Of a DNA stretch of 44,505 nucleotides, positions 1,230-20,456 are shown in pieces. The DNA is from a virus. The translations under genes were made by a program, and so were the position numbers. How positions within the stretch are numbered: the first letter of the stretch is position 1; every line of letters begins with the position of its first letter. Below the pieces are notes generated by a model. The model had not been told where the DNA came from, made no database searches, and saw only the letters and a program-made list of their open reading frames with translations. Where the stretch lies: positions 1-44,505 of the IMG/VR virus record IMGVR_UViG_3300037324_000041, one strand, 5' to 3'.

Positions 1230-1311
1230 AATTAACTAATTTAAAAACACTTAACCCCCCTTACCTATTTATTTTACTTAGTAAAATCCTAACTAATCAG
1301 CGATGTACACC

Positions 1312-1653: not shown

Positions 1654-1654
1654 A

Positions 1655-3178
1655 TTAAAAAGTATTAAAATCATTATTTTCAGGATTACTTTCAAAAGCA
1701 TCGTTAGGATTAATTTTTGGCAGTTCATCAATGCAATTGATCATTTCATTATCAATAATGTTTTGTTGAATTAAGTCTTCTGGATCCATGAATTTTGTTT
1801 TATTTTCATCAAAGAACAACCCTTTTCTATCTAGAGATCCATTACGATGTTTAGCAATTATAAATTCAGCATTAGCACCAATAGCAAGCATATCTTCATC
1901 ATCTTCTAAACCATAATAACTTGCACGATATATAAAGGCAACCATGTCTGCATCTTGTTCAATTGCGCCAGATTCGCGCAAATCTTTTAACATTGGACGT
2001 TTGCTTGAACCACGAGATTCTACATCACGACTTAGTTGTGAAAGCAATACAATAGGTATTTTCAATTCCTTTGCCAATCTTTTTAATGTTCTTGTTATGG
2101 TTGAAATTTCTTGTTCTCTAATTAAATTTTTACCTAATGATTTACAGCTCATTAACTGCAGGTAATCAATGATAACAATCTTAATTCCTAACTTTCTTTT
2201 CCATAATCTAATTTTAGCAGAAACATCTTGAATATCTATAGAAACGTCATCAAAATATGCAGGAAGTATTTCCATTTCTTGCTTTAGATTTCTAAACTGA
2301 TTAAAATATTCTGTTTTTTCAAATCCTGTTCTAAACAATTGGTTTAAATGAAAATGACTATTGCACGCAACCATCCTAGTTATAAGTTGCTGTGTGCTCA
2401 TTTCGCAACTAATAAATCCTGTAGGTATTCCATGCTTAACATTTTCTAACAAAGTTTTCATTACCAAAGAAGTTTTCCCCATTCCTGGTCTTGCTGCAAT
2501 TACAATCAAATCACCATCTTGAAAACCGTTTGTAACTAAGTCTACTTTTTTAAATCCGGTATAACATCCAGAAAGTTCATATTCGCTTTTAGAACTTAAA
2601 ACTTCAATTCGTTTATGAATAAGTTTTAAAGCTTCCAACATTGTTAAGTCGGTTGTTCCAGATAATATTTGTTCGTTGATCTGATCTAAGTTTTTACTTT
2701 GTAAATCAATTAAATCAAAAATGTCTGAATCTGCATCGTAGGCGTTTTCAATAACTTGAGATGCGCTTTTTATCATTTTGCGTTTAACCCATTGTTGCAA
2801 TAAAATTCTACTATGAAATTCTATATGAGAACTAGATGCAACTTTTTGTGTTAGTTGGACCAAATAATAATCTCCGCCAATTCTTTCAAGATTATTTGTA
2901 GTTTTTAATTTATAGGAAACTGTTAACAAATCCACGTTTTCGTTGGCTAATTTTAAACTTTTAATAGCTTCAAATATTAGCTTATGTGAATCTTTGTAAA
3001 AGACATCTGAATCTTTTATAATCATTAAACATTCATCAATGCTTTGCGTATCTATCATAAGCGCACCCAAAACTGCTTCTTCTAAGTCAATTGCTTGCGG
3101 CGGAAGTTTTCCTTTTTCTAAGCTAATAATTGATGACCTATCATTATTTTTCTGACTTAAATTTTTAATTGTTTCCAT
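1655..3178 (-). CDS. dnaB: Replicative DNA helicase, DnaB-like
   Basis: A 507-residue hexameric helicase of normal length. The N-terminal DnaB domain (PPQAIDLEEAVLGALMID near 26-43) is followed by a RecA-like core with Walker A ARPGMGKTS near 230, Walker B KIVIIDYLQLM, and the C-terminal run DLRESGAIEQDADMVAFIYR. It unwinds DNA ahead of the phage fork and binds primase. It starts next to the initiator gene (3179-3865), giving an initiator-helicase pair as in lambda O/P or SPP1 systems. The last 60 residues after DRKGLFFDE are acidic and poorly conserved. Confidence 0.93.
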   Translation of the reverse strand: METIKNLSQKNNDRSSIISLEKGKLPPQAIDLEEAVLGALMIDTQSIDECLMIIKDSDVFYKDSHKLIFEAIKSLKLANENVDLLTVSYKLKTTNNLERIGGDYYLVQLTQKVASSSHIEFHSRILLQQWVKRKMIKSASQVIENAYDADSDIFDLIDLQSKNLDQINEQILSGTTDLTMLEALKLIHKRIEVLSSKSEYELSGCYTGFKKVDLVTNGFQDGDLIVIAARPGMGKTSLVMKTLLENVKHGIPTGFISCEMSTQQLITRMVACNSHFHLNQLFRTGFEKTEYFNQFRNLKQEMEILPAYFDDVSIDIQDVSAKIRLWKRKLGIKIVIIDYLQLMSCKSLGKNLIREQEISTITRTLKRLAKELKIPIVLLSQLSRDVESRGSSKRPMLKDLRESGAIEQDADMVAFIYRASYYGLEDDEDMLAIGANAEFIIAKHRNGSLDRKGLFFDENKTKFMDPEDLIQQNIIDNEMINCIDELPKINPNDAFESNPENNDFNTF

Positions 3179-6625: not shown

Positions 6626-7129
6626 ATGAAAATATTTTACTTTATACTATTTATTTCAATGTCTGTTTTTAGTCAAAAAAAATCAATTCCAGCGGAATTT
6701 TCTGTAACAAATAATAATGCGATCATTTGGACCAAGGTTTACAAAAATAATTCAAGCGAATTAATAAAGGATTTAAGAAATAATTTATCCTTAAAAATAA
6801 ATGAAGATTCAACAGGAACTGCAAATAATTTAAGATTGCGATGCAGTAATTTATCCGGATATACCTTTGCAAATTTTCAGATAAATTTTCAAATAGAATC
6901 TAAAGAATCTGAATATAGAATTAAGGTAAGTAATGTTGTTTTTGATGAAAATATCCAAATTAACCTAGGTTCTGTTCGCACAGAAGGAACATTTAATACT
7001 TTAGAAGATTTTGAATTACGAACTACCGATAATACCCTACGTAAAAATGGCCAATCGGCAAGAAATCTTATTTGCTTAAATGAATTTTTGACTAAAATGT
7101 TTACCGCACAATTACTCGATAAATGGTGA
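6626..7129 (+). CDS. Secreted protein, DUF4468-like, possible lysogenic conversion gene
   Basis: A 167-residue protein starting MKIFYFILFISMSVFSQ, a clear signal peptide with likely cleavage after FSQ. A frame upstream to 6596 opens with TTG and is less likely. The mature part (IIWTKVY... then YRIKVSNVVFDENIQI) resembles the TBP-fold DUF4468 proteins of Bacteroidetes; this is a tentative match. It follows the repressor by 37 bases on the same strand, so it may be expressed in the lysogen. It ends 18 bases inside the convergent integrase. Confidence 0.55.
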   Translation: MKIFYFILFISMSVFSQKKSIPAEFSVTNNNAIIWTKVYKNNSSELIKDLRNNLSLKINEDSTGTANNLRLRCSNLSGYTFANFQINFQIESKESEYRIKVSNVVFDENIQINLGSVRTEGTFNTLEDFELRTTDNTLRKNGQSARNLICLNEFLTKMFTAQLLDKW

Positions 7130-8353
7130 ACGATCTACACATTCAAAACTACTTATAATTTTAAATAACGCTTCATCTCGCATTTTTTCAGGGTATTTAT
7201 CTTTATAATAATTATCAATATCGTTTCTTTCATGGCCCATTAATTCACGTATAACGTCAGTATCCACCAACATATTTTTGGCAATATTAGCAAAGGTATG
7301 GCGAGCCACTTTTACCCCTAAATTTCCGCCAAGCGGTTTTATTTCAATTTCTAATTCGCTTTGTGCTGCAGCAATGTGTCGCCTGTAATTTACTCCAAAA
7401 CTTATATAACTAGCTTTATCTTTTTTAAACGGAAATAAATATTCGTCAGTTCCGCCAGAATATTTATCAAAAATTGCTTTTGCTTTTGGATGTATTTTTA
7501 AATCAATAAGCAATTCGGTACTAGTTTTTATTCTTTCAAAAAATATTCTATTTTTTTTTATATAATGCTTTTTAAAATAATAAACATCTACCAAATCACA
7601 TCCTCCAAGGTAAAATGACAATAGCCAAAAATCTAAATAAAAACGCTGTTTTTTACTAACATTTGCAGTTTCTAAAATATATATATCACTTTTAGAAATA
7701 TACTTTTTTCGGCTATTATAACTTTTAGAAGATAATCCGGCACAAACGCCTTTAAAAGGATTTTTATCTACAAGGGCATATTTCTGAATTCCCTGGTTAT
7801 AGATTGATTGAAGTATTTTTAAATAAATTTGCACCGTACTTTTTTTATTTCCGATGCTTTGTCGGTGATTTTTAAACCGAAATAAAACTTCTGATTCTAA
7901 GGTGTCAAGAAAGCAATTTGGCGCAAATATTTTAAACTGGTTAATTACGGCATTGTACGTTTTTATGTTTCCTAAAATTTTATTTTGCGATCTTAAATCG
8001 TTAATTTTCGCAAAATTATCAGATGTATTTTTCATTTCCTGGACAAGTTTTGTAGCATGATCAATAAATTTCATTTTGTCCATACTTTCAGAAAATAATT
8101 CGTTCATAAGATTATCTACATCTATTGCGCCGTTCAAAATTAATTTTCTAACTTTGATTTTCATATCCAAAATTTTTGGCGCCAAAATATCATAATCGGG
8201 ATGTTTGTCCGTAATCATTTCAGTTTCTAAATTAAAATGCTTTTTGCTGCATTCCCAAATATCTTTTTGCCTTCTTGCATTTTTATGAGCTATTTTTAGG
8301 TATAAAACAGAATTCCTATTTGGTTCTATTCTTAATTTAAAATGATATGTCAT
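7112..8353 (-). CDS. int: Tyrosine-type site-specific integrase
   Basis: A 413-residue phage integrase of the Bacteroidetes type: N-terminal arm-binding region (1-100), SAM-like core-binding domain (about 100-220), and a catalytic domain with ARHTFANIAKN near 352, LMGHERNDIDNYY and the nucleophile Tyr near 384-385. Arg I is not at its usual place (YLGGCDLVDV instead of an Arg-containing motif) and the HxxR His is Lys (KVAR). It faces the repressor convergently and is the outermost gene of the left phage, so attP should lie in 8354-8586. Confidence 0.88.
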   Translation of the reverse strand: MTYHFKLRIEPNRNSVLYLKIAHKNARRQKDIWECSKKHFNLETEMITDKHPDYDILAPKILDMKIKVRKLILNGAIDVDNLMNELFSESMDKMKFIDHATKLVQEMKNTSDNFAKINDLRSQNKILGNIKTYNAVINQFKIFAPNCFLDTLESEVLFRFKNHRQSIGNKKSTVQIYLKILQSIYNQGIQKYALVDKNPFKGVCAGLSSKSYNSRKKYISKSDIYILETANVSKKQRFYLDFWLLSFYLGGCDLVDVYYFKKHYIKKNRIFFERIKTSTELLIDLKIHPKAKAIFDKYSGGTDEYLFPFKKDKASYISFGVNYRRHIAAAQSELEIEIKPLGGNLGVKVARHTFANIAKNMLVDTDVIRELMGHERNDIDNYYKDKYPEKMRDEALFKIISSFECVDRSPFIE

Positions 8354-8364
8354 TTGTGTTTTAT

Positions 8365-8432
8365 TTGCGTTTGATAGGTAAAAAGCGGTAATTTGAGGAG
8401 CAAATTTAGCTTTTTAATTAATACAAACGCAA
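8365..8432. repeat. Inverted repeat overlapping the integrase promoter
   Basis: The left arm TTGCGTTTG...TAAAAAGC (8365-8386) mirrors the right arm GCTTTTTA...CAAACGCAA (8409-8432), 9 and 8 paired bases with an unpaired patch. A minus-strand TAAATTTG (8401-8408) with TTG at 8430-8432 makes a plausible integrase promoter within it. It is a candidate regulator site or recombinase arm site. Confidence 0.55.
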
Positions 8433-8586
8433 TAAAAAATAAGGATATGACTGGTATAGCGATATTTAGAAGAAAAATTTAAATTGCTAATACTTTAACT
8501 AATGCTAAACATTCATAAATTTATAATTATTTGTAAATCAATTATTTAAAAACAAAAACAATATTTCATTTGTTAATTATTTGCTT
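8433..8586. other. AT-rich spacer between two phages, candidate attachment region
   Basis: Roughly 155 very AT-rich bases between the integrase promoter and the last gene of the middle phage's lysis operon. No tRNA fragment, terminator or ORF is evident. By position it should contain the attachment site of the left phage, but the core sequence cannot be identified without the other att junction. Confidence 0.3.
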
Positions 8587-8784
8587 TTAAATACTAAAAG
8601 GAACTACAATTAAAGAATTTATTTCTTTTTTTAAAAACATGATTTCTGACTGTACTTTACCCAACTGGGTAAATAGTTTGTCATTTACTTCGAATAACGA
8701 TTCGATGTTTGCGAATATTCGTGCTTTTTTAAGCAGTAATTCTTGCAGCTTTGTATTTAGTTGCTTTTGAAGAATTGTATCCAT
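8587..8784 (-). CDS. Small coiled-coil protein after the lysis cassette
   Basis: A 65-residue, almost wholly helical protein (LNTKLQELLLKKARIFANIE, then LGKVQSEIMFLKKEINSLIV) with heptad-like spacing. Its ATG lies inside the 3' end of the spanin gene (28-base overlap), so it is probably coupled to it. It is the final gene of the middle phage's leftward late operon. Function unknown. Confidence 0.5.
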   Translation of the reverse strand: MDTILQKQLNTKLQELLLKKARIFANIESLFEVNDKLFTQLGKVQSEIMFLKKEINSLIVVPFSI

Positions 8785-9305
8785 TTTGTTCGATATTTAT
8801 AAATGATAACAGCAATGATTAAAATTAAAAATCCTAAAAAATAAATAATAATCGGAATTCCATATCGGTCCACTTCTTTATTTTTTTCTTTGGCTTTTGT
8901 GGCTACTTTTTTTTCTTCGTTAAATTTTATGTTTAATTCAGAATCAATTTTATTTTGCTCTTGCACTATTTTACTTTCTGCTGTAGTAGTTTTTTTATTT
9001 TTCTTTTTTAGTGTTCCAGAACCTTTATATTTTAAACCACCAAGGCTTTTACCTTTGCTGTCAAATTTTTCTATAATTAAAGAATCACCTGGTTTAATTT
9101 CTACTTCAAATTCATCTTCTTCTACTTCCGATTTTGAATCTGTTGCTTCCGTTTTTTTTTGATCTACCTTTATAATTTCGGTTGTGTTTTGTTCTGTATT
9201 TTTAACCTTATTAGTTTCGGTTTTGCTTTCTTGCTTATTCTTTTTTAAGGAAGAACAGCTTAATAAAAAGAAAGAAAATATTAGTATTATTAATTTTGTT
9301 TTCAT
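8757..9305 (-). CDS. Unimolecular spanin (lipoprotein with C-terminal TM)
   Basis: A 182-residue protein with an N-terminal lipoprotein signal (FSFFLLSCSS, lipobox Cys near 17) and one C-terminal membrane helix (IPIIIYFLGFLILIIAVIIY, about 150-170), separated by a Lys/Glu-rich helical linker. One chain anchored in both outer and inner membranes is the definition of a u-spanin (as T1 gp11), which fuses the membranes in the last lysis step. It follows the endolysin and holin genes directly, which fits. Primary sequence is not conserved among spanins, so the call rests on architecture and position. Confidence 0.75.
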   Translation of the reverse strand: MKTKLIILIFSFFLLSCSSLKKNKQESKTETNKVKNTEQNTTEIIKVDQKKTEATDSKSEVEEDEFEVEIKPGDSLIIEKFDSKGKSLGGLKYKGSGTLKKKNKKTTTAESKIVQEQNKIDSELNIKFNEEKKVATKAKEKNKEVDRYGIPIIIYFLGFLILIIAVIIYKYRTKWIQFFKSN

Positions 9306-9307
9306 AA

Positions 9308-9862
9308 TTATTTAATTTTAGCTTTCCATTTTATCAACTTTAACTTTCTATCTTCAATACCATTCAAACCGCCATTGATTCTTTTTGTTATGGTAATAAT
9401 ATCGTCTTTGTCTGCGTATTCGTTTAATTTGTTTTTTTGCCAAAACCACAAAGCGGAAATTAACGCATTTGCTTCTTGTAATAATAAGTCGGGATTAGTT
9501 AAAAAATCTATTCTTGTGTCTTTTGATAAAACGGTATAATTTGACTTACCTGTAATTTGGATAAAACCTCTTCCACGAAACTTAAAGCCATCTCCACTTG
9601 CTTCATTTCCGTTACCCATTCTACTAGCATAAACTTTGTTTGCAATTTTTTCAGGTTGTCTTGCGAATTTATTTGCTATTTCAATTGTTGGAAAATACTT
9701 TTTGAAAGTTTTACCCAAACCCGAAGCAGAATAATTTAAGTTTTCTGCTATTGGTTTCAAATTACTTTCGTGGTCTAATTGACTAAAAAAATGAGCCAAA
9801 CGTAAAGGCGTATTTATATAGTACGAATTAAGAAGCGTTTTGTATTTTTCAAATAATTCCAT
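9308..9862 (-). CDS. Endolysin, GH19 chitinase-like
   Basis: A 184-residue muralytic enzyme. GH19 features: LRLAHFFSQLDHESN (catalytic Glu in HES, near 35), NLNYSASGLGKTF, the RGRGFIQITGKSNY signature (near 118), and ITKRINGGLNGIEDR. It cuts the glycan backbone of peptidoglycan. The longer frame to 9928 starts with TTG inside the holin gene; the ATG at 9862 (MELFEKYKTLL), 3 bases after the holin stop, is preferred. There is no signal peptide, so release depends on the holin upstream. Confidence 0.85.
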   Translation of the reverse strand: MELFEKYKTLLNSYYINTPLRLAHFFSQLDHESNLKPIAENLNYSASGLGKTFKKYFPTIEIANKFARQPEKIANKVYASRMGNGNEASGDGFKFRGRGFIQITGKSNYTVLSKDTRIDFLTNPDLLLQEANALISALWFWQKNKLNEYADKDDIITITKRINGGLNGIEDRKLKLIKWKAKIK

Positions 9863-9864
9863 AA

Positions 9865-10404
9865 TTAATTGTTTATTTCTTTTTTTACTTCTTTGTAAAA
9901 ACCAATCATTTTTTTTATTCGATGCCAAAGGTTAAAACCGCATTTTGGTAGGTTTTCGTGAAATATTGAAAAGCCTTCGTTTAGGCAAAAAACGATTAAT
10001 GCGATGGTTGCCAATTCAAATTCGGCATGTGAAAAATTTTCGTATCTAAAGTTTTTAAGCATTAAAGTTTTTTGAAATTTTATAAGAAGCAATGTCAATC
10101 CGATGTATGCAATAGCTTTGAATATCATTTTCTTAAATTTATCCGAACTAAATCCTTCGCCTTTTCCAAAAAACCATTTTTCTTTTCTCGTTAAACTTTT
10201 TTTCCATTCAAAATAAGAGGCAAAAAGTCCTGTTACTAAATCTGCCAAAAACATCCAAAAAAGAATATAAGCCACTGACTTGAAGTCAACCACTACATTG
10301 ACCACTACGATTGCAGGAATTGTTGAAAGCATTACTAAAGGCTTTTCAATAAAAATATTTAATAAAGAAAATTTTGGTACTGCGAGTTCTAGGAATGATT
10401 TCAT
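9865..10404 (-). CDS. Phage holin, holin_4/toxin-secretion type
   Basis: A 179-residue membrane protein with hydrophobic segments at about 28-42, 45-62, 98-110 and 128-142 and the family core YILFWMFLADLVTGLFASYF (near 47-66). A basic stretch KKSLTRKEKW follows. It forms the inner-membrane lesion that lets the GH19 endolysin out. It lies between the tail-tip gene and the endolysin. Longer than many small holins but usual for this family. Confidence 0.75.
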   Translation of the reverse strand: MKSFLELAVPKFSLLNIFIEKPLVMLSTIPAIVVVNVVVDFKSVAYILFWMFLADLVTGLFASYFEWKKSLTRKEKWFFGKGEGFSSDKFKKMIFKAIAYIGLTLLLIKFQKTLMLKNFRYENFSHAEFELATIALIVFCLNEGFSIFHENLPKCGFNLWHRIKKMIGFYKEVKKEINN

Positions 10405-10423
10405 TGTTTAATTTTATTTTATT

Positions 10424-11242
10424 TTATACTTGCCTGCCTAAAGATGTTTGAAATGTTTGAATTGCATTATAAAAATTATTTTGTTCGGTGTCTGTTAAAC
10501 CAAAGCCAATTGTTGAAAAAGCGCACTGAAAACTAGAAAATTGCTGGGGTACTTGTGGATTTGTACCTCGATTTGATCCAATTAAAATTGTTGAATTATT
10601 CACACCAGTAGAAGCACTTGATAAATTTTTAACATTAGTATTTTGATAAACATTAAATATATTTGATACAATTCGATTCACCATTAAAAGTCCTATGCTT
10701 ACACTAGAATTGTCGCCATTGAAAGAATATCCATTCGCCTCATTATAAGCCAAAGTCCCGTTTGTACTAGATATATCTAAAGCAGTATTGCTTGGGGTTC
10801 CTCCTCCAGAAGTTCCCATAAGAACTCTATCACTTGATGAAATATTGTTTGTTCGTGAATAATAACTTATATGAATACTATTTCTAAGTAATCCTGCTAA
10901 ATTTGGATTGCAATTTGTATCTGCATAACCATTAGTGCCGTTTGGCAATGCACCATTTGCAGAATGAATCCAACCACCATTAAATATTAATCTATGTGCT
11001 GCATCTAAATCTCTAGGATCTTTTAAATTAAACTTATGCGAAAATAAATTACCTCCTATCATTGGATATATGGCTTTGAATTTTGACCATATAGAATCGT
11101 TTTTTAATTTTATAACTAAATTATTAATTGCGTTTTGTTGCGTTGTATTTGTTATCGATGCGGCTGTAATAAAAGCCTGTGCATCGGCATCTAAAACACC
11201 TCCTTTAACTCTGCCAAAAATGTATTTTTTCAAAGTTCCCAT
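10424..11242 (-). CDS. Tail tip / receptor-binding protein candidate (copy 1)
   Basis: A 272-residue protein. Residues 1-110 hold a conserved start (MGTLKKYIFGRVKGG) and YPMIGGNLFSHKFNLKDPRD; the centre (about 112-225) is a Gly/Ser/Asn-rich region likely to be beta-sandwich (lectin-like), and the end (AFSTIGFGLTDTEQNNFYNA) is conserved. The partial gene at 43850-44505 has nearly the same N- and C-terminal parts but a very different centre. Its place between fiber protein and holin, and the variable core between constant ends, suggest host recognition; this is inference. Confidence 0.6.
   Translation of the reverse strand: MGTLKKYIFGRVKGGVLDADAQAFITAASITNTTQQNAINNLVIKLKNDSIWSKFKAIYPMIGGNLFSHKFNLKDPRDLDAAHRLIFNGGWIHSANGALPNGTNGYADTNCNPNLAGLLRNSIHISYYSRTNNISSSDRVLMGTSGGGTPSNTALDISSTNGTLAYNEANGYSFNGDNSSVSIGLLMVNRIVSNIFNVYQNTNVKNLSSASTGVNNSTILIGSNRGTNPQVPQQFSSFQCAFSTIGFGLTDTEQNNFYNAIQTFQTSLGRQV
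10953..11079. repeat. 127-bp exact repeat, internal copy
   Basis: Bases 10953-11079 equal bases 44379-44505 without a mismatch, inside the two tip-protein genes. The two nearest differences are at 10946/44372 and 10952/44378. The other copy runs to the last base of the window. A length of exactly 127 matches a common maximal assembly k-mer. Confidence 0.95.
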
Positions 11243-11244: not shown

Positions 11245-12141
11245 TTAAGAATCTAACAAAATTGTATTAGTATTACCTCTTCTTATAAGGCTAAAGGTCT
11301 TTTTTTCTGTTATAGTAGTTGGTGCAGTTTCAAAAGTAAAAGGAGCGGTAATTGCAATTGTTAAAGTAACCCCAGCCAGAGTTCTGCCGACAAACATAAA
11401 CTGATCTAATAAAGTTGCTGGTATTGTAATTGTGCAACTTGCGGTTACTAATATAGTTTTGCCGTTCCACGCATTGGATACGTTTGTACTGCCGTTTACT
11501 TCAATTTGACTATCCTTTACTTGCTTGGAATCTATTTGAGTTTGTGCGCTACTTGTAAGGTCTAGAAAATTAGCTGTTTTAAATAATGCTAAAGATTGAT
11601 CAAAAAACACCTTAACGTAATTTATTAAATTATCAAATGTTAATTTTTTTCTCTTAGAATCTGCACTATCTAAAATGGTAAAAGAATCTGTTATTATTGG
11701 AACTTCTTTTTCTAAAATTGGTTGAACAAAATCATAAACACCACCGCCACTTACTGCGTTTGTGCTGTTTTCTATAACTTCGGAATCAATAACACCGCCC
11801 GAACTTGAAATTTCAATATTACCACCATTTAATAAGTTTTGACCGTTAATACTAGCTATGTTTACCGTATTTACTAAAGTATTTTGCTTTTCAGCCAACA
11901 AAGCATCAACCTTGCTTTTTAAATACACAATTGGATCTGAATTGTTTGAATCTACCTTAACAGTTCCACTTACTGTAACTTGTGCTTTAACCGCACCGCC
12001 AATTGTTGACTTTTTAGCCTTATAGCTAGAGCCTTGAGGACTTTGCGAAACATCGTTAGGGTCAACAACGTGTATAAATGCGTTGTCAGGTACGCTTAAA
12101 ATCTCTGTTAGTTCGGTTAATTTTTTATCTATTAAAGCCAT
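11245..12141 (-). CDS. Tail fiber-like structural protein
   Basis: A 298-residue protein starting MALIDKKLTELTEIL with an N-terminal segment (PDNAFIHVVDPNDVSQSPQG) typical of Bacteroidetes phage fibers that begin with a list of run-time properties. It is Ser/Thr/Asn/Val-rich throughout with short repeats such as INGQNLLNGGNIEI, the beta-rich pattern of trimeric fibers. The C-terminal portion (TILVTASCTITIPATLL, then ITEKKTFSLIRRG) looks like a beta-sandwich cap. It lies just upstream of the tip protein. Likely virion fiber; precise role unknown. Confidence 0.6.
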   Translation of the reverse strand: MALIDKKLTELTEILSVPDNAFIHVVDPNDVSQSPQGSSYKAKKSTIGGAVKAQVTVSGTVKVDSNNSDPIVYLKSKVDALLAEKQNTLVNTVNIASINGQNLLNGGNIEISSSGGVIDSEVIENSTNAVSGGGVYDFVQPILEKEVPIITDSFTILDSADSKRKKLTFDNLINYVKVFFDQSLALFKTANFLDLTSSAQTQIDSKQVKDSQIEVNGSTNVSNAWNGKTILVTASCTITIPATLLDQFMFVGRTLAGVTLTIAITAPFTFETAPTTITEKKTFSLIRRGNTNTILLDS

Positions 12142-12696
12142 CTATTGAAAAATATAATTGTTATCGTTTTGGAAAATATAGTTTGTACTATCGTTAAAAA
12201 TATAGTTAAATCCGTCAAAAATTATCAAACTTGTATTTATTAAATTATTACAAAAAGGTGCAATGTTTTCTTCTTGCCCACTAAATGAAATGTTATAAGT
12301 TTGGTTTGTGGTTATTGTTAAAGTTTCACTTTCTACTCCGTTTCTAAAACCCATTAAAAAAAAGTTGTCGTTATAATCTTCAACTACTATAAAATAATCT
12401 TTCTTTAAAAGTTTGCTAAAATTAACATTATCAAACGCACTTATTTTACTAAAATTCAAAGATAAACTTTGATTATAAGACTTACCACCGTCTGTAATTT
12501 GTTGCGATTGCGAGAAAGTACTTGCACCAAGCATTTCAAACTTATAAATAAACGTTTGAGGAAAACCAGTTAACTCCACACCATCATAAGCTATGTTTGA
12601 ACGCGTTACTTTTTTGTAAGGCGCTAAATAAACAGACTTAACACCACCAATTGAATTTTTGCATTGCTTATTTCGTCCGTTAGTAATTTCTTTCAT
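12142..12696 (-). CDS. Structural protein, paralogue of 15353-15871
   Basis: A 184-residue protein beginning KEITNGRNKQCKNSIGGVKS, closely matching the start of the protein at 15353 (CDITNGRKKQCKNAIAGTSK). Both continue with VYL, a mid-region with FxYxxxG and SQS, a Thr-rich strand and FxLxGxxxGVE. The pair probably shares a fold used in the virion tail or connector. Its start overlaps the end of 12680-13243 by 17 bases. The C-terminus repeats NYIFxxD three times (YNYIFNDSTNYIFQNDNNYI). Confidence 0.55.
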   Translation of the reverse strand: MKEITNGRNKQCKNSIGGVKSVYLAPYKKVTRSNIAYDGVELTGFPQTFIYKFEMLGASTFSQSQQITDGGKSYNQSLSLNFSKISAFDNVNFSKLLKKDYFIVVEDYNDNFFLMGFRNGVESETLTITTNQTYNISFSGQEENIAPFCNNLINTSLIIFDGFNYIFNDSTNYIFQNDNNYIFQ

Positions 12697-13243
12697 CGTA
12701 AAATCTTCTGTCTAGTCTGTCGCGTCTTATATCTTGATTTCTTGTGCCGCTCATTAGCCAACCGCCCGTTAGTCTAATTTTATCTACCTTATTATCCAAG
12801 TCAATATATTGCAAATACTCTGGTATATTCTTATAAATAAGAAACTTTTGCGCTCTTGCTAGATACATTTGCGCCTTAGTTCTTTGCGTTTGCGCTAAAT
12901 ATTGTACCTCGCTTTTATCTACTATCTGACTATCACTTGGTTGATGCTTAAATATGCCCCCGTTATCAACGCTGTAACTTGCGATTTCAACGTATTCCGC
13001 AAATATTTGATGTCTAAGTATAGGTTTGAGATAATCTTCGTATAAAACAAGGTAATCATTCGCTAAATTGTTGTTTGTAAAGTCTGTTAATAGTCTATTG
13101 TATAGAGGCGTTCCTAGTAAAGGCTCAATTACTGAAATTTGAACATCTAAAATTACGGGTTTTATCTTATCAACGTCAATATTACCGCCTAAAGGAGTAA
13201 ATTCTGTTATTTCTGAAGGTCTAATTAATAGTGTTATAGGCAT
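12680..13243 (-). CDS. Head-tail connector-like protein, DUF6712-type
   Basis: A 187-residue protein. The helical pattern IDVDKIKPVILDVQISVIEP followed by LLGTPLYNRLL is that of DUF6712-like Bacteroidetes phage proteins, thought to be adaptor/connector subunits because they lie after portal genes. The same is true here: it follows the portal gene with a 5-base gap. The basic end (RNQDIRRDRLDRRFYDERNY) is typical. Role by family and position. Confidence 0.6.
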   Translation of the reverse strand: MPITLLIRPSEITEFTPLGGNIDVDKIKPVILDVQISVIEPLLGTPLYNRLLTDFTNNNLANDYLVLYEDYLKPILRHQIFAEYVEIASYSVDNGGIFKHQPSDSQIVDKSEVQYLAQTQRTKAQMYLARAQKFLIYKNIPEYLQYIDLDNKVDKIRLTGGWLMSGTRNQDIRRDRLDRRFYDERNY

Positions 13244-13248
13244 AATTT

Positions 13249-14946
13249 CTAGTTAAATCTTTTATTTGATGGCAAAAATCCATTGAAAGGCATATCTTTT
13301 GGCGCTGTATAAACTAATTTATCATTTGCTGGCAATATTTCGCCCTCTTTTCTTGCTTGTGCTGGCGTTATTTTCTCTGCTAAAGGGCTATTTACGTCTG
13401 ATTTTAGCCTATAAGTTTCCCGAATCCAAGAATGATGGCAGCCTCCACCGCCTTTATAAAGCCAAATATCGTAATTATCAGCACCTTTTGCTCCCCAACC
13501 CGAGTTAACAGACGATTTACTCATTCTGTCTATGTCTTGCTTGCGATATAGCTTGTTTGCCCCTACCATTTTACTGCAAAACTCTCTACTATTTGCATTC
13601 AAACCACTACTATATCTGTAACGGCTCTTAAATAGCTTACCATCTTGCTTTGGGTTTGTAGTTGTATCTTTTGCGTTAGGGTTTGCCGTTCCAGTGCTTG
13701 CAAATTGTATGTTATGACCCGCTATAATCTTGTCTAGTTCGTCTTCGTCCTCATACTCAACTTTTCTACTATCTACTAAATCATAACCTTGCAAATCGCT
13801 TTCTAAACTATCTAAAATCTCATCTAGTGTTGACTTTTTTTTTTCTTCGCTTAGTTGAGTTGGCATTGCAGTATCTTGCACCTCTGAAAGTGGTTTGAAA
13901 TAAAAATCAAATGCCATATTATTAAATGAAATTATCTCATCAATAGCTTCTATAATCGGAAATTGTTTTGGCGCAATAACGCGCTTTAAAAGCTGTGATT
14001 CCGCTTCGTCAAGTTCGTTTGCGTTATTACCTAAACCCGTATTATCTTTAATTCCCGCTAACATTGGAGAAGTTAAAAAATGCCCCGTCATTATTTGTTG
14101 GCGTGCCTCATTGCTTAAAAACTCCCATTGCTTATGCATAGATTCGTTTACAGGAAACGCCGTAATAGTAATTTCTGAATCTTTACTAGCAAAATTTAAA
14201 ACAAATTTACCAGCGTTAGGCGAACCCGTTAATTTAGCTTTTATTTGACGCTCGAAACTATCCTTTTCTTCTGCCGTTAACGTTTGACCGTCTGGCACGT
14301 TTATAAGATAACCAGCTGATAATCCGTTCAGTAAAAAGTTATTATAAAAGTTACTAATTTCCTCCTCTATGTTTGCAAATTGTAATGCGGGCAAGTAACT
14401 TGGATCTGAGAAGTAATTTTTACCCGCTGAGTAAGGTTTGATGCAGTATATTTCCGATTCATCGTTAGAGGTACCAAAAGCGCTAAATTGCTCAGCTAAT
14501 TTTGGTTTAGTCCAATCCTTATTATAAAAATAGTGTTCAATTTCGCCCTCCTCGTTTTCTAAACTAGGAACTACATACTGCTTAGGCAAATGAAATATAC
14601 CCGTTACTTTTTTACGGTCTTTTGATTTAATAACTTGTACGCTAGCCTCTCCGAATAGTTGAAAGTCACTAACTATTTTACGTAAATCTTTGCTATTTAA
14701 TATGGTTTTGAAATTCGCCCATTCAGTTGGCTTGCTACTTGCATTTTTTGCAAACAACCCTTGTCCGTAAATTAAATGAGTGTATGCTGTTATAATAGAA
14801 TGGTTTGTTACGCTTCCATTAAACCTATCTATAATGTATTGGTAAAAACTATTGTTAACGCCGTTTAAAACCCAGTTTTTAGATTTATTTTCTTGCAATA
14901 CGGGTTTAACGTAGTTGTTTAGTTGTATTAATTTTATTTCGCTCAT
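13249..14946 (-). CDS. Portal protein with C-terminal minor-head-like extension
   Basis: A 565-residue protein. Residues 1-380 follow the portal pattern: an N-terminal region with LIYGQGLFAKN (near 64), a wing with LFGEASVQVI and FHLPKQYVVP, and a stem/clip with SNEARQQIMTGHFLTSPMLA. After an acidic linker (380-430), residues 440-510 form a separate unit (RYRYSSGLNANSREFCSKMV, then YDIWLYKGGGGCHHSWIRE) with Cys/His residues that recalls the end domain of phage head-morphogenesis proteins. Portal forms the dodecameric DNA gate. The gene follows the capsid genes rather than the terminase. Confidence 0.72.
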   Translation of the reverse strand: MSEIKLIQLNNYVKPVLQENKSKNWVLNGVNNSFYQYIIDRFNGSVTNHSIITAYTHLIYGQGLFAKNASSKPTEWANFKTILNSKDLRKIVSDFQLFGEASVQVIKSKDRKKVTGIFHLPKQYVVPSLENEEGEIEHYFYNKDWTKPKLAEQFSAFGTSNDESEIYCIKPYSAGKNYFSDPSYLPALQFANIEEEISNFYNNFLLNGLSAGYLINVPDGQTLTAEEKDSFERQIKAKLTGSPNAGKFVLNFASKDSEITITAFPVNESMHKQWEFLSNEARQQIMTGHFLTSPMLAGIKDNTGLGNNANELDEAESQLLKRVIAPKQFPIIEAIDEIISFNNMAFDFYFKPLSEVQDTAMPTQLSEEKKKSTLDEILDSLESDLQGYDLVDSRKVEYEDEDELDKIIAGHNIQFASTGTANPNAKDTTTNPKQDGKLFKSRYRYSSGLNANSREFCSKMVGANKLYRKQDIDRMSKSSVNSGWGAKGADNYDIWLYKGGGGCHHSWIRETYRLKSDVNSPLAEKITPAQARKEGEILPANDKLVYTAPKDMPFNGFLPSNKRFN

Positions 14947-14947
14947 A

Positions 14948-15262
14948 TTAAAAAGTAAAAATATCTTTAGTAATTTTGTATTCTTGCGTTTCGTTTGACT
15001 GGTCTGTTATAAATAGTTTACCTCTGTAAATTATTTCGTTTGTAGATTCCTCAAATACTGTTATTTGGTAATTTGAGTTATTTATAAACGATTGACTAAA
15101 AGCAATATACATATAACCGTCAACCGTTAATTGATTTGTGGTATATTCTAAAAACTCGTTATTTTCTTCGTTTTGTAATCTTAATAAAATACTGCCGTCA
15201 ATATACTTTCTAGGTATTATAACTATTTCGTGATTGACCGCTAAAGGCGAAAGTATTTTCAT
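14948..15262 (-). CDS. Hypothetical virion-region protein
   Basis: A 104-residue protein starting MKILSPLAVNHEIVIIPRKY, predicted mostly beta (YMYIAFSQSF, YQITVFEEST, IIYRGKLFIT). It sits between the terminator at 15303-15331 and the portal gene, whose ATG is one base from its stop. Similar small beta proteins occur beside portal genes in Bacteroidetes phages, but I cannot name the family. Possibly a tail or head-completion protein. Confidence 0.5.
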   Translation of the reverse strand: MKILSPLAVNHEIVIIPRKYIDGSILLRLQNEENNEFLEYTTNQLTVDGYMYIAFSQSFINNSNYQITVFEESTNEIIYRGKLFITDQSNETQEYKITKDIFTF

Positions 15263-15301
15263 ATTTATTAAACGATAAAATAGTGATTTTGTAACAAAAG
15301 C

Positions 15302-15336
15302 AAAAAACCCGCTAGTTATAAATTAGCGGGTTTTTA
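15302..15336. terminator. Bidirectional intrinsic terminator
   Basis: Stem ACCCGCTA / TAGCGGGT (15307-15314 with 15324-15331), a nine-base loop, T-runs on both sides. On the minus strand it lies between the 15353 gene and the portal block, so it would lower transcription reaching the portal genes relative to capsid genes. Confidence 0.75.
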
Positions 15337-15352
15337 ACAATAAAAAAAAAGA

Positions 15353-15871
15353 TTATGTCGTTGGGTTTACTACTGCTAAAAATGCTGTAATAGTCGCGCT
15401 ATCTAGTAAAGGCGCTAATTCTGTTTCAATAGAAGTACCTGTTAAGTTATAACCGTTGAAGTCTGCTTTTGCGCCTCCCGTAGTTGGTGCAACTAAAAAA
15501 TCAATTCCTTCTTTCAAACCTACTAAATGATAGTTTCCAGCTTTGTCTTGAACAACCGCTTTAGGGTATCCATAGGCTAATAAATTCAATTGGTGGTTGT
15601 CCTCTTTAGTTGTTTTTGGCAAAACTAAAGTTAATGTTTGGGTGTTTGTAGTTGTACCAGCGTTTCTGTCAGATGCTAATGACTGAGCAAAAATGTTTCC
15701 ATCGCCTATTAAATCATATTGAAATACGTCTACTAAAAGCGGATTCATTGCCGTAGCTACGCCGTTTAAAATTGTGAAAGGATTTTCAATGTCGTTAAAT
15801 AGATACACCTTTGAAGTACCCGCTATCGCATTTTTACATTGCTTTTTACGACCGTTCGTTATATCGCACAT
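15353..15871 (-). CDS. Structural protein, paralogue of 12142-12696
   Basis: A 172-residue protein immediately after the major capsid gene. The N-terminus shares TNGRxKQCKNxIxG with the 12142 protein. The mid-part has YDLIGDGNIFAQSLASDRN and LTLVLPKTTKEDNHQLNLLA; the end is Thr/Ala-rich. Placed directly behind the capsid gene and flanked by terminators, it is probably an abundant virion protein such as a tail tube or capsid accessory subunit; the sequence does not settle which. Confidence 0.55.
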   Translation of the reverse strand: MCDITNGRKKQCKNAIAGTSKVYLFNDIENPFTILNGVATAMNPLLVDVFQYDLIGDGNIFAQSLASDRNAGTTTNTQTLTLVLPKTTKEDNHQLNLLAYGYPKAVVQDKAGNYHLVGLKEGIDFLVAPTTGGAKADFNGYNLTGTSIETELAPLLDSATITAFLAVVNPTT

Positions 15872-15886
15872 ATATTATTTTGTGTT

Positions 15887-15914
15887 AAAAAAGGGCGATA
15901 TTTTCAACCGCCCT
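15887..15914 (-). terminator. Intrinsic terminator after the major capsid gene
   Basis: On the minus strand AGGGCG pairs with CGCCCT (15909-15914 with 15892-15897), followed by six Ts. It lies between the capsid gene (ends 15923) and the next gene (starts 15871), so it likely attenuates readthrough and sets capsid expression apart. Confidence 0.7.
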
Positions 15915-15922
15915 ATTATTAA

Positions 15923-16921
15923 TTATACGTATAAAACGTTGAATTTCTGATTTACTACGTGAGCAAAAATAGTAAAGATAACGTCGTAGAAGTAATCCTT
16001 TCTTGGTGCTGGGTATGGAGCAATTTGAATGTCAGAATAGTCATCTAACAAGTCCGTACACCACATAAAGTTCATAGGTACACCAGCCAACATTACGTTA
16101 GGTGCTAAAGGTACAAATACAATTTCTACGTCTAAGTAAAAATATTTGTTAGTAGCTAAATCTACTGTGAAAGTATCTCTGAAATCTTGCGCTTTGTTAA
16201 AATTGTTAATTAATTTCTTAACGCTTCTTGAAGCATAAATATAAGGCTTGTCGTTGCCAGATAAAACCTCATCAGGAATTGCGTTGTAAATTTTGCCAAC
16301 TTCTGCTCCAATATTTGCAGAATCCAAAACCGTACCGCCAACTTTAATTCTTTTACCTACTGCACCTTTGTTGTAGATTATTTTAGTAGTTAATGAATCA
16401 AACAATGTAGTTGGCATTGCAGCAACTAACGCTTTTTCATTTGCAGAAACTTGTGTTTGTAAAGCTCCAGCCGTTAGTAAAGCTACTGCCGTTTTTGTTG
16501 ATGCTAAAGCACCATTCCAATACTTGTTTTCTGAATCGTTTGAAATTAAAGGTGCTACACCGTTTAAAACCAATCTGTTAAATTCGTCGGATACGTCGTT
16601 AATTGCACCAGGTGCCATATCTCTATTGAATCTAGTAGATCGCAAATCGTCTGGAGTAAATTTGTCGATATACTCAACTTTTACAGGGAATACTGTTGTA
16701 TCTTCTAAACCAATACTACCAGCTTCAGAACCTGTTGGGTTAACGCTCCAAGGTTGCATTGTTACCGAATTAATATTTTCAGTAATTACGCGACCAGCTT
16801 TAATGCCAGTTTCAAACATTACCAAACCATCTTCAACGGTTGCATTTTTGAATAAAATTTCGGCTATAATGTCCGCTTTAAAATCTGTGGGAATTACCGC
16901 CCCCGTGTATGCTATTGCCAT
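15923..16921 (-). CDS. Major capsid protein
   Basis: A 332-residue protein right after the protease/scaffold gene, the standard place for a major capsid protein. Features: FKADIIAEILFKNATVEDGL near the N-terminus, a E-loop-like segment (VNPTGSEAGSIGLEDTTVFP), DDLRSTRFNRDMAPGAINDV, and a C-terminal beta region (VEIVFVPLAPNVMLAGVPMN). It lacks the long N-terminal delta domain of HK97 gp5, as the scaffold appears to be on the protease gene. Fold assumed HK97-like. Confidence 0.75.
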   Translation of the reverse strand: MAIAYTGAVIPTDFKADIIAEILFKNATVEDGLVMFETGIKAGRVITENINSVTMQPWSVNPTGSEAGSIGLEDTTVFPVKVEYIDKFTPDDLRSTRFNRDMAPGAINDVSDEFNRLVLNGVAPLISNDSENKYWNGALASTKTAVALLTAGALQTQVSANEKALVAAMPTTLFDSLTTKIIYNKGAVGKRIKVGGTVLDSANIGAEVGKIYNAIPDEVLSGNDKPYIYASRSVKKLINNFNKAQDFRDTFTVDLATNKYFYLDVEIVFVPLAPNVMLAGVPMNFMWCTDLLDDYSDIQIAPYPAPRKDYFYDVIFTIFAHVVNQKFNVLYV

Positions 16922-16932
16922 ATTATATAAAT

Positions 16933-18036
16933 TTAATTAAATTTGTTTTTGTGTTCAATAAATTTTTGGTATGCTGTTTGCGCCCCTAATTGCGTTGGTA
17001 CTGAAACCTTTGGCTTTGTTGCTGGTTGCGCACTTAAAGCAACTATTTCCGCTTTTAAAACTACGTTTGCATCTGTAACCGCTTTTAATTTTGCGTTAAA
17101 TTCTTCTGCGTATTTAATCATAATCGATTTAATCGCATTTTCAACCGCCGTTGCTTGGTCTGTTGCACTTGGAACATTTGGCTCTGAAAGTGGCGCATCT
17201 ACATTTTCTGCTGCTGGCGCTTCCATTGCTTTCATCGAACCAATTTTACCTTCTTCTGTAACTGATAAAATCATACCATCTTCCAACTCGTAATCTCCAA
17301 CTGGTAAAGGAACTTGTGTACCATCTTCTGCAACTACGAAAACTGCACCGCCTTCCATCATCATATCGCCCTCGTATTCGATAACCACCGAACCGTCAGC
17401 GCTTTTTACACTACCCAACTTAATATCTACTTTAGGCTTTAATGCCAAAGCAATACTAGTAGGTAGGTTTTTCAACATCTCAATTATTTCTACACTCATA
17501 TTTATTTCTGATTTTAAATTTACTTCTTCTAGTGATAGCATTGCGTCAATACTAAAACCTTTTACTTTGCCCGTCTTAACAAACTCACTCCAAACATTAT
17601 CGTTGTCAACTTTCATAGTTGCAATCCAACTACCTTTAGGATAGCTTAACCCTAACGCGTTTGATTTATCATTTTTGCTATCTTCTACTATCCAACTTTC
17701 AACAAAGGTAACACCTTCGATTTTTTGGCTCTCATCGTGTTCTATTGTGCTGTTTTTTTGGTGGTTATTTTTAAAGAAACCGTAAGATAATTCTTTAATG
17801 GTATTTTCTGAAAATGTTATATTGAACTCTTCGCCGTTTTGATTGCGATAAATTGGCTTGTTTGGCTCTAGTACTAAACCAACCAAAATGCGTTGTTCGC
17901 TATCTATTTCTTTAAGTTGCAAAGACTGCGCTTTTAAGGCTATGAAGTCGCCCTCCATCGCTGGATTAAGTACAAGCGAAACCGCAAAAACTCCTTTATT
18001 TTCTTCGGGATTATAAAAAGCCTCGTATGTCTTCAT
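16933..18036 (-). CDS. Prohead protease fused to scaffold, XkdF/S78-like
   Basis: A 367-residue protein. Residues 1-165 match XkdF-type serine proteases: EAFYNPEENKGVFAVSLVLN at the start, FFKNNHQKNSTIEHDES (catalytic His near 97), and KTGKVKGFSIDAML (nucleophile Ser near 157). Residues 200-265 form an acidic Gly-rich part, and 290-367 a coiled coil (AVENAIKSIMIKYAEEFNAK, then LKAVTDANVVLKAEI) typical of internal scaffolds that the protease later destroys. It lies 12 bases upstream of the capsid gene. Confidence 0.8.
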   Translation of the reverse strand: MKTYEAFYNPEENKGVFAVSLVLNPAMEGDFIALKAQSLQLKEIDSEQRILVGLVLEPNKPIYRNQNGEEFNITFSENTIKELSYGFFKNNHQKNSTIEHDESQKIEGVTFVESWIVEDSKNDKSNALGLSYPKGSWIATMKVDNDNVWSEFVKTGKVKGFSIDAMLSLEEVNLKSEINMSVEIIEMLKNLPTSIALALKPKVDIKLGSVKSADGSVVIEYEGDMMMEGGAVFVVAEDGTQVPLPVGDYELEDGMILSVTEEGKIGSMKAMEAPAAENVDAPLSEPNVPSATDQATAVENAIKSIMIKYAEEFNAKLKAVTDANVVLKAEIVALSAQPATKPKVSVPTQLGAQTAYQKFIEHKNKFN

Positions 18037-18092
18037 AATTTATAAACGTAATTAATGTTAAATTGTAACATAAAAAGATTTACATAAAAGTA

Positions 18093-18122
18093 TTGTTTAA
18101 TTAAATAATAGTTATATCTTTG
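18093..18122 (+). promoter_or_regulatory. Rightward promoter with extended -33 motif
   Basis: AAAGTATTGTTTAATT with TTG at 18093-18095, a 19-base spacer, and TATCTTTG at 18115-18122. It drives the two rightward genes at 18145 and 18546, against the direction of the surrounding late operon. The same extended -33 block occurs at several leftward early promoters. Confidence 0.8.
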
Positions 18123-18144
18123 TAGAAACCAAAAAACAAATATT

Positions 18145-18543
18145 ATGACTACTAAAGAAAAAGAAGCCATTTACCAAAAACAATATCGGTTAGATAACAA
18201 GGAAGGACTAGCAAAACAAAAAAAACAATATTACCTAGATAACAAGGAGGAAATATTAAAAAAAGCAAAACAATATGGCTTAGAAAATAAGCAAGAAATA
18301 GCAAAACAAAAAAAACAATATCGTTTTAATAACAAGGAAGAACAATCCATTTATCAAAAACAATATCGTTTTAATAACAAGGAAGAACTTAAAGAAAAAT
18401 ATAATTTACTACCTGATTTTGTTTTAAGACTATCTATAAAACGAAGCTTAAAAAACAAAGGTTTAGAAATCACCCAAGAAATGATGGATATTAAAAAATT
18501 AACAATATTATTAAAAAGAGAATTAAAACAATTAAATAATTAA
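18145..18543 (+). CDS. Repeat protein with KKQYRxxNKEE units
   Basis: A 132-residue protein made of about six repeats of a 10-18-residue basic helix unit (IYQKQYRLDNKEG, KKQYYLDNKEEI, KKQYRFNNKEEQ), then a distinct end (LLPDFVLRLSIKRSLKNKG, then MMDIKKLTILLKRELKQL). The repeats resemble the leader regions of phage HNH proteins, but no HNH core follows. The end module is found on many small phage proteins and may bind nucleic acid. It has its own promoter and lies opposite to the late genes, between tape measure and protease. Confidence 0.6.
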   Translation: MTTKEKEAIYQKQYRLDNKEGLAKQKKQYYLDNKEEILKKAKQYGLENKQEIAKQKKQYRFNNKEEQSIYQKQYRFNNKEELKEKYNLLPDFVLRLSIKRSLKNKGLEITQEMMDIKKLTILLKRELKQLNN

Positions 18544-18545
18544 TT

Positions 18546-18782
18546 ATGGAAGCAAAGAGAAATTTAGACTTTGAGGTAAAAACTTCAAGCGATTTAGTAA
18601 AGATGTTATGCGGTTCTTTAATGGATGTAAGACGCGGTAATTTAGACTTTGAAACGGTAAAGGCTATTACTTTAATAGCTGATAAAATTAACAAAGCTAT
18701 GGTAAACGATTTGGTTTATAAAGGATTGACTAGGCACAAAAACGATTTAGAATTTTTTGAAGAGCCTTTATTATTAGAATAA
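18546..18782 (+). CDS. Hypothetical protein, second gene of rightward pair
   Basis: A 78-residue protein starting MEAKRNLDFEVKTSSDLVKM. It holds DVRRGNLDFETVKAITLIAD followed by KINKAMVNDLVY, a short two-helix pattern seen in small Bacteroidetes phage proteins that follow the repeat-type gene. It begins 2 bases after 18543 and ends just before a shared terminator. Possibly a DNA-binding or regulatory partner of the upstream repeat protein. Function not known. Confidence 0.55.
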   Translation: MEAKRNLDFEVKTSSDLVKMLCGSLMDVRRGNLDFETVKAITLIADKINKAMVNDLVYKGLTRHKNDLEFFEEPLLLE

Positions 18783-18787
18783 AAAAC

Positions 18788-18820
18788 AAAACCCGATAAC
18801 ATTAAGCTATCGGGTTTTTT
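18788..18820. terminator. Bidirectional terminator between convergent units
   Basis: Stem AAACCCGATA / TATCGGGTTT (18788-18797 with 18808-18817), a ten-base loop, T-rich on both sides. It ends the rightward pair 18145-18782 and the leftward tail operon that finishes with the tape measure. Confidence 0.85.
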
Positions 18821-18821
18821 A

Positions 18822-20456
18822 TTAAAATTTACTATTTGATATTATATTACGCTCTAACGCTTGAGCGGTGGTAACATTTGAACTAACCACAAACGCTTGT
18901 ATTGGTTGGTTTTGACCTCCTAAACTAGACGCTATTTGATTTGCTCCCGTTCCTTGAACTAAATTAAAAGACGGTGCAGATGGTGCTTGTTGACCGCCGC
19001 CGCCGCCAGTATTTGAACTTGGTGGAGTTGAGCCGCCAGCCTTGGTACTTAATATTTTTTTAATTTGTATTGCAGAAAACGCCCCAGCAAGACCAGCTTG
19101 AATTAATGGATAAGCGGGAAATAAAGTAGTGATAGGAGATTTTTGTGCTGTTGTATAAGCATTTTGCACACCCTCGTAACCCGCAATAGTTGCTTGTGCC
19201 ACTGCTGTTGCTTTTCCTATTTTAGAACCTCTTCCAGCAAGTTCTCCGATTAGATTTAAAGTGTTGTTTGCCAAACCTATTTTAGCATCTTTAACCGCTG
19301 TCGCTCTAATTATTTCGTCCGCAGCCGCCTTGTCATCTATTGCTTTTTTATCTGCTGCAGCCTTATCGTCAATTATTTTTTTATCCGCAATTTCCTTATC
19401 TTTAATTTCTTTTTTATTTCTAGCAAATTGCGCTTCTAGTTCTACTGTTGAAACATTATTATCTACTAATATTTTTCTTTCTTGCTCAAACTTTGCCGTT
19501 AAATTTTGTAACGCGGTTCTTGTTTTTTGCAAGTTATCTTCTCTCGCATCGTCCTCAATTTTATTTGCTTTATCTAAAGCGGCTTTTCTTGCGTCCTCAA
19601 TTGCTTTTCTTTTTGCTTTTGCTATTGCATCTGCTTTCTCTTGTAATGCCTTTCTTTTATCGTTTATAGACTTATTGTCAGCGTCTATTTTATCTTGCGC
19701 TTCTTTGTTATCTTTTACTTTTTTATCGTTTCTCTGTTTGTCTATAGCAATTAAATCTCTGTTTAATCTTTTAGCTAATTCATTTCTTTTTTCGTCTGTA
19801 ATGTCTTGCTCTAAAACCGCTTCGTTGTATCTGTTTTTAGCTTCTATTTTTTTCTTTGTAAACTCATCTAATAGGTCACCTCTAGTTTGCATATAATCTT
19901 TGTTTAATTTTAAAGATTTTTTTGCACGCTCGTTAAATTTATCTAACTCCCTTTCTGCTTCCGAAGTTATACCTATAAAATCAGTAACCGCATTAGATAC
20001 CGTTCTAAAGAAATCGCCAACTAATTTAAGCCCGGGCAAAAACTTTGTAACAGCATCAGTTATTTTTCCAAAGTTCAAAACTAAAGAAACTAACGCCAAA
20101 ATAATTAAACCAATTCCAGTACCAGCTAGAGCAAGTTTAAAAAGTTTCATTGCTCCCGTAGATGTGCCAACAACAAAACTATAGGCAGATTGTAAAGCGG
20201 TTGCAAGTTTAGATTCTTTAGAAAACAATCCAAGTGCCTCTACTGAATCTTTACCTACTTGAGCGTAACCACCCGTAACTGCATTTAGTAAACCCATTGC
20301 GCCGCCGTTTTCCAAAACCGATACTGAACTTTCCTTCATTCCTTTTGCAACTCCTGACGTGCTTTTTTTCAAGGTGTTTAAAGAATTATCTAGCTTGTCA
20401 ATCTTACGGTTTGCGTCGCTTGTATCTGCTACAACTTTTATTACTTCTGTAATCAT
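18822..20456 (-). CDS. Tail tape measure protein
   Basis: A 544-residue protein. N-terminal IKVVADTSDANRKIDKLDNS and a Gly/Ala-rich region to about 100; one membrane-like segment (FKLALAGTGIGLIILALVSL) near 105-125; a long charged coiled coil (about 170-390) rich in KAxxDxK repeats; a second weakly hydrophobic part (PLIQAGLAGAFSAIQIKKIL); and a flexible Gly/Gln/Pro end. This is the tape-measure pattern: it sets tail length and travels through the tail to the membrane. It is short for a tape measure (lambda gpH 853), suggesting a short siphovirus tail. Confidence 0.85.
   Translation of the reverse strand: MITEVIKVVADTSDANRKIDKLDNSLNTLKKSTSGVAKGMKESSVSVLENGGAMGLLNAVTGGYAQVGKDSVEALGLFSKESKLATALQSAYSFVVGTSTGAMKLFKLALAGTGIGLIILALVSLVLNFGKITDAVTKFLPGLKLVGDFFRTVSNAVTDFIGITSEAERELDKFNERAKKSLKLNKDYMQTRGDLLDEFTKKKIEAKNRYNEAVLEQDITDEKRNELAKRLNRDLIAIDKQRNDKKVKDNKEAQDKIDADNKSINDKRKALQEKADAIAKAKRKAIEDARKAALDKANKIEDDAREDNLQKTRTALQNLTAKFEQERKILVDNNVSTVELEAQFARNKKEIKDKEIADKKIIDDKAAADKKAIDDKAAADEIIRATAVKDAKIGLANNTLNLIGELAGRGSKIGKATAVAQATIAGYEGVQNAYTTAQKSPITTLFPAYPLIQAGLAGAFSAIQIKKILSTKAGGSTPPSSNTGGGGGQQAPSAPSFNLVQGTGANQIASSLGGQNQPIQAFVVSSNVTTAQALERNIISNSKF

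Follow-up and report, generated by a model that had tools for sequence, protein, structure and literature searches.

The window analysed here, a complete IMG/VR record of a metagenomic virus contig (44,505 bases), probably represents two coexisting phages of Bacteroidota joined at a tip gene, with lectin-type tips whose cores and cassettes were swapped by recombination. One of the two, hereafter the S-phage, is an integrase-less, P12024S-like phage that forms a circle of 33,426 bp (10953-44505) and carries the tip protein TipB and lysis cassette B. The other, the A-phage, is a second, integrase-bearing phage (1 to about 10952) with TipA and lysis cassette A. The features are listed in Table 1.

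The original prediction described a pair of tip genes with constant ends and a divergent centre, each placed directly before a lysis cassette. We observed both: the core (residues 114-232) is 43% identical at the amino-acid level, and the genes that follow are a holin (PF05105) and a GH19 endolysin for TipA and a T4-type lysozyme for TipB. The prediction did not notice that the two copies most likely lie in separate genomes, two different phages having been fused within the tip gene of this contig. An ORF check placed both reading frames on the minus strand, the plus strand being full of stops. As TipB runs off the right contig end, the two proteins could be compared only over residues 56-272 (TipA numbering).

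Table 1. Features of the window, with their positions, strands and the evidence for them
Feature	Position	Strand	Evidence or remark
Second small terminase, A-phage	759-1229	minus	PF05119, E 2e-5
A-phage replication/packaging region	759-3178	minus	Pfam
DnaB helicase, A-phage	1655-3178	minus	PF03796, E 4e-80
Tyrosine integrase, A-phage	7112-8353	minus	PF13102, PF00589
Lysis cassette A	8757-10404	minus	Pfam
Spanin-like lipoprotein, lysis A	8757-9305	minus	
GH19 endolysin, lysis A	9308-9928	minus	PF00182, E 7e-8
Holin, lysis A	9865-10404	minus	PF05105, E 1.3e-10
Cassette right border, A lineage	10405-10425	.	L057/L058 homology begins at TipA stop codon, before holin
TipA, distal host-recognition (tip) protein of A-phage	10424-11242	minus	ORF, 272 aa; core aa 114-232
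127-nt exact repeat, internal copy (assembly-graph vertex)	10953-11079	.	within TipA N-flank
Tail-fibre gene directly upstream of TipA	11245-12141	minus	aa 1-113 conserved in S-phages
Cassette left border, usual	11790-11811	.	homology ends at 11810/11811 in seven other S-relatives and starts at 11790 in A-type contigs
S-phage head, tail and packaging module	12142-29031	minus	synteny with Nonlabens phage P12024S; Pfam
S-phage portal	13249-14946	minus	Pfam
S-phage large terminase	27579-28790	minus	Pfam
ERF-family (Rad52-like) single-strand annealing recombinase, S-phage	38892-39497	minus	PF04404, E 4.5e-23
Lysis cassette B	41799-43777	minus	Pfam
Lysis B small genes: 173-aa outer-membrane-like protein, 109-aa and 71-aa proteins	within 41799-43777	minus	
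Spanin-like lipoprotein, lysis B	41799-42263	minus	
Phage lysozyme, lysis B	42260-42721	minus	PF00959, E 1.3e-35
Cassette right border, S lineage	43847-43849	.	relatives' homology resumes directly past TipB stop codon
TipB, S-phage tip protein, last 217 residues	43850-44505	minus	open-ended ORF (43850-44503), cut by contig end
127-nt exact repeat, terminal copy	44379-44505	.	reaches last contig base

Two phage backbones probably joined in one contig

The exact repeat between the contig end and the TipA gene stops at 127 nt, the next inner base being a mismatch. De Bruijn assemblers break contigs where several paths exist and leave end overlaps of length maxK, and a k of 127 is a usual metaSPAdes value (PMC10914622). 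Three related records show such ends: the S-type circle G001 (35,794 bases) carries a direct terminal repeat of exactly 127 bases, and in both G002 and G004 the 127 bases at an end recur exactly within the record. Judged from its length, the end match of the window is what an assembly-graph vertex would leave at k=127. Since its last 127 bases equal those at 10953-11079, the right end continues at position 11079, in the tip gene, so that 10953-44505 makes a closed path of 33,426 bases. We infer the place of the join from this overlap length together with the relatives described below. Most likely, TipA and TipB stem from separate phages living in the same habitat, which the assembler would have fused because their tip genes have at least 127 identical bases in common. 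A second repeat (120-247 and 34054-34180; 128 nt, 94.5% identity, with exact runs of 35 and 46 nt) connects the contig end of the A-phage with the S-circle and is another stretch common to both phages.

We scanned IMG/VR with the portal protein and obtained relatives of the S-phage. Lysis B came next in all nine same-backbone relatives that reach past the structural module (L014-L019, L089, L094, L095), and where these are long enough they then carry replication genes; lysis A followed the S backbone in none of the nine. An integrase was not found in the S-type records G001 and G002, and was present in part A of the window, G003 and G004. A second scan, with the holin that follows TipA, yielded L057 and L058. 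L057 is 99.5% identical in nucleotides to window positions 7117-10425, lysis A included. Upstream of lysis A, both records have structural genes unrelated to those of the S-phage, and the structural genes of L057 are linked with the lysis A holin again in L066. As lysis A thus lies behind non-S structural genes and the integrase is missing from the S-types, TipA, lysis A, the integrase, DnaB and the second small terminase belong to another phage. We infer that this A-phage is temperate.

The S-phage resembles the Nonlabens (Persicivirga) phages P12024S/L of the genus Inhavirus in its gene order (portal, small genes, fibre, lysis, ERF, large terminase). P12024S, the closest isolate, has 35.7 kb and no annotated integrase; its large terminase is 62% identical in amino acids to that of the S-phage, whereas most other proteins are only 27-49% identical and the lysis genes differ. 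A homologue of the tip was not detectable in P12024S/L. The similarity to Inhavirus was limited to protein level and synteny, with nucleotide similarity below that of a genus, and we regard the S-phage as a relative of the P12024S group, not as a member of Inhavirus.

Mosaic tip genes and exchange of the recognition cassette

The tip proteins aligned without gaps, and their similarity blocks were far above chance (self-BLAST E = 1e-121). In the N-terminal flank (residues 56-113), TipA and TipB were 100% identical in amino acids and 97.7% in nucleotides, with four synonymous changes and a dS of 0.12; part of this identity follows from the position of the flank at the contig end. The core was 52.9% identical in nucleotides, with dS saturated at about 2.4, and the C-terminal flank (residues 233-272) was again 95% identical in amino acids and 94.2% in nucleotides (dS 0.24). 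Synonymous divergence thus shifted abruptly at both core borders (9 changes at ~61 sites in the flanks versus 61 at ~85 in the core; Fisher p = 4e-12). Protein constraint cannot, over a mere 650 bases, keep synonymous sites similar in the flanks while they reach saturation in the core; the tip gene is therefore a recombination mosaic, its flanks being of recent common ancestry (by transfer or gene conversion) and its cores not. The abrupt rise and fall of dS supports the predicted exchange of cores between coexisting phages by recombination in the constant flanks.

The prediction had also invoked diversifying selection. In the strict sense this found no support: dN/dS in the core was about 0.23 (0.557/2.43), and the core gave no sign of positive selection in a test that is weak, being of a single pair with saturated dS. 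Core strands were kept somewhat better than loops (49% versus 38%). Across the tip family, the mean pairwise identity was 57% in the N-terminal part, 22% in the core and 42% in the C-terminal part. A search for further cores between the same flanks had been proposed; IMG/VR yielded no third copy with these flanks at nucleotide level, where exact 29-30-nt patterns of the N- and C-flanks gave no match in a search that may have left out records near the window's own. The family occurred in 5 of 395 Bacteroidota genomes, but these members were too far removed to say anything about the flanks.

On a larger scale, the tip is exchanged together with the distal part of the fibre that precedes it. Residues 118-298 of the fibre, its C-terminal two thirds, are the cassette part and match L058 at 93% amino-acid identity. 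S-relatives are 90-95% identical on either side of this locus and unrelated within it. Seven of nine S-relatives (and likewise L020) have the left border at 11810/11811, while it falls at 11732 in L089 and at 11527 in L014, and the tip stop codon is the right border in both lineages. Between the A-type L057 and the closed S-circle G001, similarity is confined to the recognition cassette, with 902 nt at 94% identity and 432 nt at 89%; outside it, no protein match was found between them at E < 1e-4. In L058, the tip begins MGNLKKYIFGR, as against MGTLKKYIFGR in TipA, and then differs, continuing with a Laminin_G_3 lectin domain; as a search query it matched only itself.

At least two cassette types occur at the 11810/11811 border. 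The cassettes of S-relatives differ from that of the window, with repeat-bearing fibres of 437-753 residues and a 95-aa gene, or a 350-aa fibre (L089). As read from the sequences, more distant relatives of the A-phage holin have other fibres upstream, some with SGNH-hydrolase-like ends, and L067 carries a distant member of the tip family (assigned without a profile). These comparisons show the distal fibre and tip to be a modular host-recognition cassette exchanged between otherwise unrelated backbones; the core swap between TipA and TipB would thus be the same exchange on a finer scale, inside the last gene. It is distinctly unlikely that 11810/11811 and the stop codon of the last gene form a preferred or even dedicated exchange point, through which temperate phages and integrase-less ones infecting the same host draw on a common cassette pool.

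Several of the fibres (L018 3223-5109, L019 2745-5006, L095 2-2104, L057 7310-9682) contain the short repeats SNFFGTAAGNGATNA and NTTGSNNTANGVSALQS in varying numbers, which suggests that fibre length may vary by repeat gain and loss.

Predicted lectin-type fold and receptor binding

AlphaFold2 predicted a lectin-type jelly roll for both tips (TipA, pLDDT 80, pTM 0.84; TipB, truncated to its last 217 residues, pLDDT 73, pTM 0.76), with the core as the least certain part of either model. Both predicted models matched AbnA in its carbohydrate-binding domain (Z 16-18) and, at Z 15-16, the cyanophage Pan3 tailspike, and the lectin-type matches spanned 180-215 residues at Z 15-18. The lectin-like domain of trypanosomal sialidases and the binding domains of clostridial neurotoxins were matched as well, and the best BFVD matches were phage (fibre) proteins with collagen-like or Ig-like parts. 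A relation to toxins was considered and rejected: neither a sequence relation nor any other toxin part was present, and the neurotoxin matches reflect only the common lectin-type jelly roll, since carbohydrate-binding and phage tailspike domains score equally.

In Pfam, neither TipA nor TipB gave a match, LamG and Laminin_G_3 included, while the replacing tip of L058 did; in PHROGs, TipA alone had matches, only to families of unknown function. The tips have the fold of the concanavalin A-like lectin/LamG domains known from phage fibres and spikes, but lie below the Pfam thresholds and belong to a distinct family, whose members begin with a helical segment and have a helix at the C-terminus.

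The tip gene is the last of the tail-fibre operon, directly after the fibre and before the lysis genes. This position, the predicted fold and the hypervariability of the locus in phages otherwise about 94% identical agree with the receptor-binding role proposed earlier. Taken with the exchange pattern, the best reading, well supported by context, is that the tips are predicted receptor-binding proteins. Their probable place is the tip of the tail fibre, where they would bind a host-surface glycan or protein, and the family members are candidate lectin-type adhesins of Bacteroidota phages. In an uncultured phage (L008, L009, L012) a single protein carries a tandem pair of tip domains. Another family member lies on a Ginsengibacter chromosome (L071 7902-8735), starts with a lipoprotein-type signal peptide and adjoins an esterase-like gene, with no obvious prophage around it.

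Alternative explanations and known systems

That the contig is a real molecule, be it one phage with two tips, tandem prophages, or a cointegrate produced by tip-gene recombination of the circular S-phage into the A-phage, would explain why it crosses both loci unbroken, and a single crossover in the shared tip flank gives exactly its order. However, the end match marks an unresolved graph vertex, S runs into lysis B in every one of the nine relatives and the relatives of lysis A carry other structural genes, and we consider this reading very improbable. Equally improbable is diversifying selection alone, in which fast point mutation would have altered the core of a duplicated gene without any exchange. 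The greater variability of the core across the family speaks for it, but selection on the protein would not saturate the synonymous sites of the core and leave the flanks nearly unchanged, and the low core dN/dS also argues against it.

The tip could instead be a virion decoration or a particle-binding lectin, with the upstream fibre recognising the host. A lectin-type fold shows no function by itself, the Ginsengibacter chromosome has a related domain in a predicted lipoprotein, and most S-relatives have a long fibre and the 95-aa gene in place of the tip. We nevertheless hold this unlikely, as the tip stands at the end of the fibre operon, is exchanged along with the C-terminal half of the fibre, and is replaced by another lectin domain in L058. 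Rewriting of the core by a diversity-generating retroelement, to which the variable and constant parts within one adhesin-like protein might point, is scarcely credible: a search with positive controls found no reverse transcriptase (PF00078, RVT_1) in the record, which may be incomplete, no template repeat was found near either tip gene, and the differences extend over about 357 nt with saturated synonymous sites.

The best explanation is two phages and an exchanged cassette. TipA and TipB would be the last genes of host-recognition cassettes in two coexisting Bacteroidota phages, and their constant N- and C-terminal parts may serve as homology arms. Recombination would then swap the core or, on the larger scale, the whole distal fibre and tip cassette between backbones. 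A phage annealing recombinase is a plausible driver, the ERF protein of the S-phage being a candidate; the adsorption function, the ligand and the recombinase involved are all putative. Rad52-like phage recombinases act on diverged DNA and yield mosaics with homologous borders (De Paepe 2014, PMC3945230), and ErfD3 is active on 78% identical substrates (PMC3945230). Here too, traces of homology lie at the borders of the exchanged fragments, and an ERF-family recombinase is encoded.

It has long been known that unrelated phages exchange their host-recognition modules. Transfer of tail-fibre genes among unrelated phages was described for P2 and others (Haggard-Ljungquist 1992, as cited in PMC3945230 and PMC10579305), and horizontal transfer of such genes for the Alteromonas phages A5/V22 (PMC10579305). 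As in those systems, a recognition module is found on unrelated backbones, joined to a backbone-specific N-terminal part of the fibre. The present case differs in that it concerns Bacteroidota phages, has a lectin-type tip instead of a fibre and chaperone pair, is recent (89-94% nucleotide identity), and pairs integrase-bearing with integrase-less backbones. The last point deserves some attention, since among E. coli phages a survey detected no exchange of virulent with temperate phages (PMC3945230), whereas the cassette here is common to integrase-less and integrase-bearing lineages, with lifestyles judged from gene content only. We thus have a natural, recent case of recognition cassettes moving between such lineages in one habitat. 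Shared cassettes also lead metagenome assemblers to join different phages exactly at the receptor-binding gene, and apparent double-tip phages in catalogues therefore need to be checked for k-length end repeats.

Some minor observations concern the S-phage. In the lysozyme of lysis B, identical ends enclose one of two inner segments, FGATFYPDGKRVTLKDKEI or YGNTYYEDKTKVSMSNPAI; their alternation across S-relatives (L089 2821-3282, L095 3495-3956) is another small core swap. Between the head and tail genes lies a small gene on the opposite strand (18145-18543, plus) made of 45-nt repeats (KKQYRLDNKEE...), which is absent from L014 and some other S-relatives. The promoter form of Bacteroidota, TTGTTT-N14-20-TAnnTTTG, has five matches in dispersed AT-rich repeats of the S-phage (18093-18122 on the plus strand; 30831-30860, 36108-36136, 39519-39549 and 41643-41672 on the minus strand), against 0.67 expected; five were reached in 1 of 100 shuffles. 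These matches would fit a Bacteroidota host and likely mark operons of the phage.
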